From contig NZ_QOCL01000009.1 of assembly GCF_004006665.1 (NCBI RefSeq), forward strand, positions 372,001 through 436,000: 64,000 nt of DNA. The letters are read 5' to 3'. Each line of letters starts with the position of its first letter. Position 1 is the stretch's first letter. The position numbers and the translations under genes were made by a program. The notes below the pieces were generated by a model. That model saw nothing but the letters and a program-made list of their open reading frames with translations, was not told where the DNA came from and made no database searches. This document shows positions 19,402-21,836 of the stretch, piece after piece. This DNA comes from Halobacteriovorax sp. HLS. Its GTDB lineage: Bacteria > Bdellovibrionota > Bacteriovoracia > Bacteriovoracales > Bacteriovoracaceae.

Positions 19402-20577
19402 ATGAACCTACCAATAATGGATGATGATTTTAAAAATTTACAACATGAGTACGCTCTAGAGCTTCCGGATTTAATTGATACAGTAGAATCAAATCTAATG
19501 AGTATTGAGACTCAAAGTAATATAGAAAAATCGATCAAGGATTTAAAGCGAGTTGTCCATAGTATAAAAGGGACTGCTGGTTCTTATGAACTAAAGTGGG
19601 TTTCAAGTCTATGTCATCAATTTGAAGATCAACTTGATGATACACAAGACGCTTTAATTATGGATCCTAAAAAGAATATTGAGCAGTTTTTTAAATATGT
19701 AGATCTCTTTAGATCTTATGTTGCGAGCTTTTTAGACGGTGCCGTCTCTCAGGAAGAGTTTGATATTGCACTAAGAAAGTTAAGGCAAGACCCTCTGCTT
19801 GAAGTAGATGGTGAGAGTATTGAAAAAAGAAAGGTTTTAATTGTAGAGTCGGCCTCTACTTTATTAAAAGCTTATAAGCTGCTTATTTCCTCTCTAGATA
19901 TGAACTACTCTACTGCTATGAGTGGTAGAGAGGGCTTCGAGAGACTTCTTATTGAAAAGTATGATTACCTTATCACTGGACATGCCACAGGAATTGTTGA
20001 TGGCCCTAGTCTTATAGCGATCACTAAAGTTTTTAATGGAGCTTCAAGAGGAGTGAAAACAATCCTTACAACCTCTATCGATCAATTAGACTTAGAGCCC
20101 GAGCAGATGCCTGATATCTTGATTGAAAAGAAACTTGGAATGATGGAAAAAATAAAAGAAGTTTTTTCTGAGGAGTCCGCTAAAGAAGTTCTTGATGAAA
20201 CAACACTTCCTTTTAAAAAGGTTCTGTGTATCGATGATGATAATGCCGTATTGAAACTTTTGAAGCTTGCCTTTTCAAAACAAGAGGATGTTGAATTCTT
20301 TTTTTCTAATCATTTTAACAAAAGTGAAATTCAGGTTAATCAGCCAGAACTTATTCTTCTCGATTATTTTATAGATGATAGAACAGGTGTAGATATCTTA
20401 AAAGAGCTAAGAGATGAATGTGGTTACGAGGGAGAAGTTGTATTCTTAACTGGTACAACTTCTCAGGATGATCTTCAAGAAATGTATGACTCTTCAGCAA
20501 GTGGAATTATTGAAAAGCCATTTAATCCAAAGAGTCTATATCAACTTTTAGCTGATATCTTTAAAAAAGCGGCCTAG
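19402..20577 (+). CDS. HPt domain - degenerate receiver - receiver protein
   Basis: A 391-residue signalling protein with three parts. Residues 8-118 form a histidine phosphotransfer domain with HSIKGTAGSYEL (phospho-acceptor His53). Residues 142-255 fold like a receiver but lack the acidic pair and the phospho-Asp (IVESAS and ITGHATG at the equivalent spots). Residues 272-390 form an intact receiver: IDDDN, Asp321 in LILLDYF, a TGTT segment and K513-equivalent in IEKPF. No kinase or output domain is present, so it is a phosphorelay intermediate. It overlaps the convergent gene by 4 bp. Confidence 0.88.
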   Translation: MNLPIMDDDFKNLQHEYALELPDLIDTVESNLMSIETQSNIEKSIKDLKRVVHSIKGTAGSYELKWVSSLCHQFEDQLDDTQDALIMDPKKNIEQFFKYVDLFRSYVASFLDGAVSQEEFDIALRKLRQDPLLEVDGESIEKRKVLIVESASTLLKAYKLLISSLDMNYSTAMSGREGFERLLIEKYDYLITGHATGIVDGPSLIAITKVFNGASRGVKTILTTSIDQLDLEPEQMPDILIEKKLGMMEKIKEVFSEESAKEVLDETTLPFKKVLCIDDDNAVLKLLKLAFSKQEDVEFFFSNHFNKSEIQVNQPELILLDYFIDDRTGVDILKELRDECGYEGEVVFLTGTTSQDDLQEMYDSSASGIIEKPFNPKSLYQLLADIFKKAA

Positions 20578-21060: not shown

Positions 21061-21438
21061 ATGATAATTTTTCTAGATGATGATCCCGATTTAGCAAATC
21101 TTCTTGAAAAGAAATTCGCAAACTTTGGTGAGGATATAGTTGTTTTTTCTTCAATAAAAAAGCTGATGGAAAGTGAATTATTAGAAAAGGCCTCTCTATT
21201 ATGTTTTGATATTAATCTTGATCATGAAAATGGTATTGAATTTTTTAAAGAAATTCATCCCCTGTATCCGAGTGTTTCGTCTCTTTGTTTTTCAAACTAC
21301 TCAGATCTTTTAGAGGAACAGCTTCAGAAGGTTGGTGTAACTAACCTTGTTTGTAAAGAGGATGGGATTGATCTTTTAATGAACGAGGTTGGACGAATTC
21401 TTGATGAAAGAAAGCTCTATTCTAATGTCGCCTCATAA
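21061..21438 (+). CDS. Single-domain response regulator
   Basis: A 125-residue stand-alone receiver domain. FLDDDPDL supplies the acidic pocket, LLCFDINLDHENG holds the phospho-acceptor Asp (about residue 52), LCFSNYS the Ser/Thr position, and VCKEDG the conserved Lys. There is no output domain, so it should act by protein contact or in a phosphorelay, like CheY or Spo0F. The nearby HPt/receiver protein (19402) and chemoreceptor (21936) are possible partners. GGTGG precedes the ATG. Confidence 0.85.
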   Translation: MIIFLDDDPDLANLLEKKFANFGEDIVVFSSIKKLMESELLEKASLLCFDINLDHENGIEFFKEIHPLYPSVSSLCFSNYSDLLEEQLQKVGVTNLVCKEDGIDLLMNEVGRILDERKLYSNVAS

Positions 21439-21482: not shown

Positions 21483-21512
21483 TTGACGAAAACTATTTAT
21501 TCTAAATAAAAT
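21483..21512 (+). promoter_or_regulatory. Sigma-70-type promoter of the histone gene
   Basis: TTGACG at 21483-21488 and TAAAAT at 21507-21512, 18 bp apart, each match consensus in five of six positions. The ATG at 21547 follows about 30 bases later with GAGGA before it. This suggests strong, simple expression, as expected for an abundant DNA-binding protein. Confidence 0.6.
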
Positions 21513-21546
21513 ACATTAATTATTAATAATTTTTTGTGAGGAATAA

Positions 21547-21792
21547 ATGGCAAAGAAAAAAACGACAAAGAAAGCAGCAACTAAGAAACCGGCGAAGAAA
21601 GCATCTAAGAAAAAAGATATGCTACTTGTTGGTTCTAAAACTAAAGAAGCTCTTAAAGGTAAAGGATACAATGTATCTTCTGATACTTTAGATGCTATGA
21701 ATGAATATGTTTACTGGCTAATTGATCAAGCACAGAAGAAGTGTACTGCTAATGGTAGAAAAACAATTAGACCTTACGATATCTTAGCTTAG
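21547..21792 (+). CDS. Bacterial histone with lysine-rich N-terminal tail
   Basis: An 81-residue protein. Residues 1-24 are a tail with 12 lysines plus Thr, Ala and Pro, like the basic tails of histone H1 or HU-like proteins. Residues 25-81 read as one histone fold: helix 1 (VGSKTKEALKGKG), loop NVSSD, a long helix 2 (DTLDAMNEYVYWLIDQAQKKCTA), then NGRKTIRPYDILA. That last block carries the histone R-x-T-x4-D motif (Arg71, Thr73, Asp78) at the same spacing as archaeal histones. Helix 2 is about one turn shorter than in archaeal HMfB. It should bind and pack DNA. It has its own promoter and terminator. Confidence 0.88.
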   Translation: MAKKKTTKKAATKKPAKKASKKKDMLLVGSKTKEALKGKGYNVSSDTLDAMNEYVYWLIDQAQKKCTANGRKTIRPYDILA

Positions 21793-21803
21793 TTCTACGT
21801 TAC

Positions 21804-21836
21804 TTTTAGGCGATTTCAATATCGCCTAAAATTTCT
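21804..21836 (+). terminator. Terminator of the histone gene
   Basis: TTTTAGGCGAT and ATCGCCTAAAA (21804-21814 and 21821-21831) form a perfect 11-bp stem with a 6-base loop, followed by TTTC. It lies 12 bp after the histone stop and fits a Rho-independent terminator. Confidence 0.85.

Follow-up and report, generated by a model that had tools for sequence, protein, structure and literature searches.

A face-to-face-type histone, as judged from its sequence, in Halobacteriovorax sp. HLS, with a lysine-rich tail that varies in length among orthologues

We analyze a histone gene of Halobacteriovorax sp. HLS that lies in a 64,000-nucleotide stretch of contig NZ_QOCL01000009.1 (positions 372,001 to 436,000 of assembly GCF_004006665.1), hereafter the window. 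The genome is 3.84 Mb in size and 99.98% complete. The features at the locus, in window coordinates, are as follows:

21483..21512, + strand: predicted promoter, with TTGACG at 21483-21488, an 18-nt spacer and TAAAAT at 21507-21512
21538..21541, + strand: Shine-Dalgarno motif GAGG, 5 nt upstream of the ATG; orthologues have comparable motifs at this place
21547-21792, + strand: open reading frame for an 81-aa protein
21547..21615, + strand: lysine-rich N-terminal tail, residues 1-23, with 12 K and a net charge of +12
21616..21789, + strand: single histone fold, residues 24-81, with predicted helices at residues 29-38, 45-68 and 76-80
inside 21616..21789, + strand: loop-2 motif R71/T73/D78 and the face-to-face (FtF) interface positions K65, N69 and R71
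21804..21831, + strand: intrinsic terminator hairpin with an 11-bp stem, followed by TTTCTTGTTA

A first-pass annotation of the sequence had described exactly this 81-residue protein and had placed R71, T73 and D78 correctly; its count of 12 lysines in a 24-residue tail agrees with the translation of residues 1-24. A mis-called start codon can be set aside, as the Shine-Dalgarno motif and the MAKK start are conserved, tail codons change mainly synonymously, and the motif also stands at the tail's own N-terminus in the tailed orthologues that we checked.

The gene had been proposed to form a single-gene unit with signs of high expression, and this idea is supported: its codon adaptation to ribosomal-protein genes (0.80-0.81) is the highest of the 67 open reading frames in the window, and only 0.0004 of draws from an amino-acid-matched null reach its value. 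The signal is located in the core (0.87) and not in the tail (0.67). As for the proposed regulatory elements, the terminator stands on its own (one such hairpin found versus 0.2 expected by chance), whereas in the same scan a consensus promoter match is by itself at chance level (3 sites versus 2.3 expected). The promoter gains its credibility from conservation, since TTGAC(G/T)...TARAATA is kept in all five congeners while the upstream DNA has otherwise diverged. Similar promoter-like elements precede the gene in two further genera (g16 and g3), and hairpins with T runs, judged by eye, lie 3' of most of the other orthologues shown. Together, the conserved promoter, the terminator and the extreme codon bias support a prediction of high histone expression. 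The gene neighborhood is conserved within Halobacteriovorax and, to some extent, across related genera, and the synteny comparison pointed to no partner gene specific to the histone. Two upstream genes conserved in one syntenic relative (L008) resemble signaling genes: 19402-20577 encodes a phosphotransfer/receiver-like protein (by eye) and 21061-21438, just upstream of the histone, a small receiver-like protein; synteny made no link of either to the histone evident.

The histone fold at residues 24-81 is beyond chance. Among solved structures, the best sequence match is HLp of Leptospira perolatii (9QT0; phmmer E 3.6e-12), compared with 6.1e-05 for HBb of Bdellovibrio, and a profile built from 47 homologues recovers HLp at 7.2e-22, HBb at 4.9e-13 and the archaeal FtF histone HTkC at 3.1e-11. 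AlphaFold, run on a single chain with homologues, predicts the three helices listed above and a disordered tail, with pLDDT below 50 at residues 1-19; the mean pLDDT of 75 and the pTM of 0.54 are both lowered by the tail. When this single-chain model was compared with known structures, including Bd0055 (HBb) and HMfB as the first-pass annotation had advised, the top match was HLp (9QT1; Z 8.7, rmsd 1.0 Å over 57 residues), followed by HBb (Z 8.5) and HTkC (Z 7.9), with archaeal HMfA/HMfB and eukaryotic histones below these at about 5.7-6.4. The noted fold is thus borne out, with the profile retrieving histones and not an unrelated family. Matches to the Pfam families are weak: PF00808 falls under its cut-off (E 0.0049), as does the core histone family PF00125 (E 0.33, 11.6 bits against a cut-off of 26.4). 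A DUF1931 pseudodimer histone was rejected because 81 residues hold one fold and the PF09123 match is under cut-off. The matches to NCBIfam and to the NinG, SpoIIP and ATP synthase Pfam entries are also weak and sub-cut-off, and involve the low-complexity tail; a PHROGs search with the histone protein gave no match.

On sequence grounds, the protein fits best among the FtF histones, with a conservative replacement at one interface residue, and not among dimers of the Bd0055 type. The definition of FtF histones dates from 2024 and places the Bdellovibrionota class Bacteriovoracia among the bacterial carriers (Schwab et al., PMC11390915). In HLp, residues R49, N53 and R55 build a tetramer that wraps about 60 bp (PMC12701072, 2025). 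The RxTxxxxD loop-2 motif is present in the window protein (R71, T73, D78), and N69, G70, R71, K72, T73 and D78 are invariant in the 47 homologues, with N69, R71, T73 and D78 corresponding to N53, R55, T57 and D62 of HLp. The FtF interface asparagine (N52 of the profile, HLp N53) is therefore present as N69, and the interface arginine (R48 of the profile, HLp R49) is K65 here, a change of residue that keeps the charge; many homologues have R. The single fold with short alpha2 and alpha3 is that of bacterial FtF alpha3 histones. HBb-type histones are marked by the absence of the R48/N52 interface residues, whereas N69 is present here and invariant. As the difference in Z between HLp and HBb (8.7 versus 8.5) is within noise, it is the sequence scores, which favor HLp, and the interface residues that separate the two.

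The earlier comparison with Bd0055 was therefore right about the fold and wrong about the nearest relative, which is HLp. HLp (9QT0/9QT1/9QT2; PMC12701072) has 47% identity to the window protein and likewise combines one fold, the interface N and R and the same RD clamp; its translated form, however, has 63 residues without a lysine-rich tail, with R49 where the window protein has K65, and Leptospira lacks HU (PMC12701072) whereas this genome has four HU/IHF-family genes. HTkC (9F2C) shares the fold (36% identity) and the FtF subfamily but is archaeal, and archaeal FtF histones are generally described as tailless (PMC11390915). HBb/Bd0055 of Bdellovibrio bacteriovorus (8FVX, 8CMP, 9EZZ) shares the fold, the RKT..D loop 2 and the phylum, but it is dimeric, has about 31-35% identity over the fold, and lacks the FtF interface residues and the lysine-rich tail.

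Of 129 genomes searched in the class, 86 gave histone matches, and these fall into three kinds: orthologues of the window protein (group A; 46 analyzed), a second FtF paralogue that ends in ...DF (group B, ...GRKTVxxxDF; L106 and L108-L130, 24 analyzed) and is present in many relatives, often together with a tailed group A copy, and proteins that are longer or have two folds, a ZZ-domain histone among them. A tree separates groups A and B with 97% support. The segment before the core is 3-9 residues long and near neutral in 23 of the 24 group B proteins; in group A it ranges from 4 to 42 residues in front of a highly conserved core, so that tailed versions, which the first-pass annotation had suggested looking for, do exist in related genomes. 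We found no second histone, no group B copy and no ZZ-domain histone in the window genome. As the ZZ-domain histone is present in all four other sampled congeners, the window genome stands alone among the five in lacking it, likely through lineage loss or an assembly gap.

Group A tails of at least 13 residues consist of 49% K, 27% A, 13% T, 4% S, 3% R and 3% P, and the 674 tail residues of the group A orthologues include no acidic (D/E) and almost no hydrophobic residues. The basic residues are clustered, with 136 K/R runs of two or three against 70.6 in shuffled tails and 21 single K/R against 89, although these tail statistics come from related rows and so overstate independence. Among equal-length congeneric pairs, which are few, related, partly saturated and in one set probably misaligned, the tail has a pN/pS of about 0.18, against 0.03 for the core; synonymous tail codons have diverged while the pattern of lysine runs is kept. 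There is no conserved tail sequence even among congeners, as length and order differ and composition and K runs persist. Composition, run pattern and pN/pS, set against the 4-42 range in length, indicate that the tail is translated, and that its composition and pattern are under constraint while its length is not. Close orthologues whose fold is nearly identical are in many cases almost tailless (4-12 residues), so the tail is dispensable for the basic function of this type of histone. The core is approximately neutral (net +2), compared with about +12 per chain for the tail; a tail charge that compensates for weaker core charge was rejected, as the two do not correlate (Spearman 0.04, p 0.79). 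Marine salt alone looks unlikely to explain the tails, because the short-tailed relatives include records titled Halobacteriovorax. No other protein with the same tail was found in the window genome, where the four HU/IHF proteins are without lysine-rich tails.

The first-pass annotation regarded the tail as absent from the well-studied bacterial histones and as eukaryote-like. The first point fits the finding that most bacterial singlet histones have no long tails (PMC10627809), but the implied novelty is not supported, as Schwab et al. (2024, PMC11390915) already describe positively charged tails as frequent among the FtF histones of bacteria. The likeness to eukaryotes is one of composition only: the tail is built of K, A, T and P with almost no glycine and no conserved sequence, and we found no evidence of homology. 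Mycobacterial HupB has an HU fold with its lysine-rich tail at the C-terminus and is unrelated to the histone. It is likewise a tailed bacterial nucleoid protein (cited in PMC10919886).

The tail seems to have grown by the internal duplication of units, with the MAKKK start staying fixed. The MAKKK-type start and the Shine-Dalgarno motif are common to short and long orthologues, two of which (L091 and L092) differ by exactly one ACA GCA AAG AAA unit. The frame upstream of short-tail orthologues, at 9% K and 9% stops and rich in I/L/F/N, is unlike a tail, and we therefore rejected upstream start capture as its source; the published idea of a new start codon that captures upstream DNA fits poorly in this lineage. 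A core-only tree, built from 58 columns and poorly resolved inside group A, requires at least six tail changes.

Our main reading, to which we give a probability of about 0.75, is that the only histone found in this genome is a bacterial FtF alpha3 histone that serves as an abundant nucleoid-associated protein, with a DNA-wrapping tetramer whose tails contact DNA. The tetramer and the wrapping we infer from HLp, and the action of the tails from charge. By analogy with HLp, a ring-like tetramer would form from two dimers that meet face to face, and it would wrap about 60 bp of DNA regardless of sequence. Four disordered tails would each add about +12 to a nearly neutral core and would touch the DNA backbone past the wrapped segment or on neighboring duplexes; such contacts would be nonspecific, would increase affinity and compaction, and might also bridge DNA. 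A dimer like that of HBb, which would bend or coat DNA without tetramer wrapping, would account for the nearly equal Z of HBb as the second fold match, for the position of Bdellovibrio in the same phylum and for K65 in place of the FtF arginine. We consider it improbable, given the margin by which HLp outscores HBb with both phmmer and the profile, and given that HBb has D at the position of the invariant N69 and is reported to have neither interface residue (PMC11390915).

The tail could be nearly neutral, a low-complexity segment that is tolerated as basic and changes length by slippage, as its 4-42 range beside a conserved core, the 12-nt unit that separates L091 from L092 and the at least six changes on the tree would suggest. 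However, neutrality sits badly with the lack of acidic and near-lack of hydrophobic residues, with K runs far from those of shuffled tails, and with a pN/pS of about 0.18 in codons that diverge synonymously under a lasting pattern, and we regard it as unlikely, if somewhat less so than the HBb-like dimer. The constrained lysine doublets and the ZZ-domain histone of the four congeners would also suit a regulatory platform in the eukaryotic fashion, with tail lysines that undergo acetylation or are recognized by a second protein such as the ZZ-domain histone. As a reader in this organism the latter was rejected, since the window genome has the tail and not the ZZ-domain histone; the tails carry no conserved sequence or motif besides the K runs, and ZZ binding to tails is deemed unlikely in PMC11390915, which leaves such a platform with slim odds, below those of the dimer. 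Slimmer still are those of a tail that keeps paralogues apart by sorting tailed A and tailless B into distinct tetramers, whether homotypic or heterotypic. The tailed A and tailless B copies do occur together in several genera (g13, g35, g38), and a role for tails in biasing dimer choice has been put forward (PMC10919886), but the window genome and the sampled congeners are tailed without a B copy, and in one genus (g14) both copies are short.

Both the family of this histone and the frequency of tails within it are already published, and this protein is a good new example and not a new kind. Bacterial FtF histones were first structurally characterized in Leptospira in 2025 (PMC12701072), and those of Bacteriovoracia in Schwab et al. 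2024 (PMC11390915) belong to the same subfamily and class as ours; the main text of that paper, in the part cited, contains no account of tail length turnover, of the K-run pattern or of a tailless B paralogue. Our open-access literature search found no study of a Halobacteriovorax histone, and no expression, binding or modification data on this one. The new angle, a modest one based on sequence comparison, is a tail that is constrained yet variable in length. Because natural orthologues in this lineage come both with a tail and almost without one, on a fold that hardly differs, the role of a bacterial histone tail can be tested directly, and the lineage also bears on how histone tails arise. 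A broader and tentative proposal, which we think is possible but would not bet on, is that Bacteriovoracia carry on one of their two FtF paralogues a rapidly remodeled, duplication-grown tail of lysine pairs and triplets with A/T/P spacers, and that its length tunes compaction between species. If true, this tuning would be an independently evolved bacterial parallel to eukaryotic tails.

Several relatives contain proteins of about 140 aa that match twice in a row and are apparently doublet histones (g36 and g43). Metagenome bins labeled Omnitrophota, Gemmatimonadota and Diapherotrites also hold relatives (L019, L021, L029, L031, L033, L040, L046, L049), which may reflect gene transfer or wrongly binned contigs. 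Lysine/arginine-rich tails are also seen on distant histones under Acidobacteria and Planctomycetota labels and in a distant genus of the class (L047, 633-884; L050, 4971-5171; L107).
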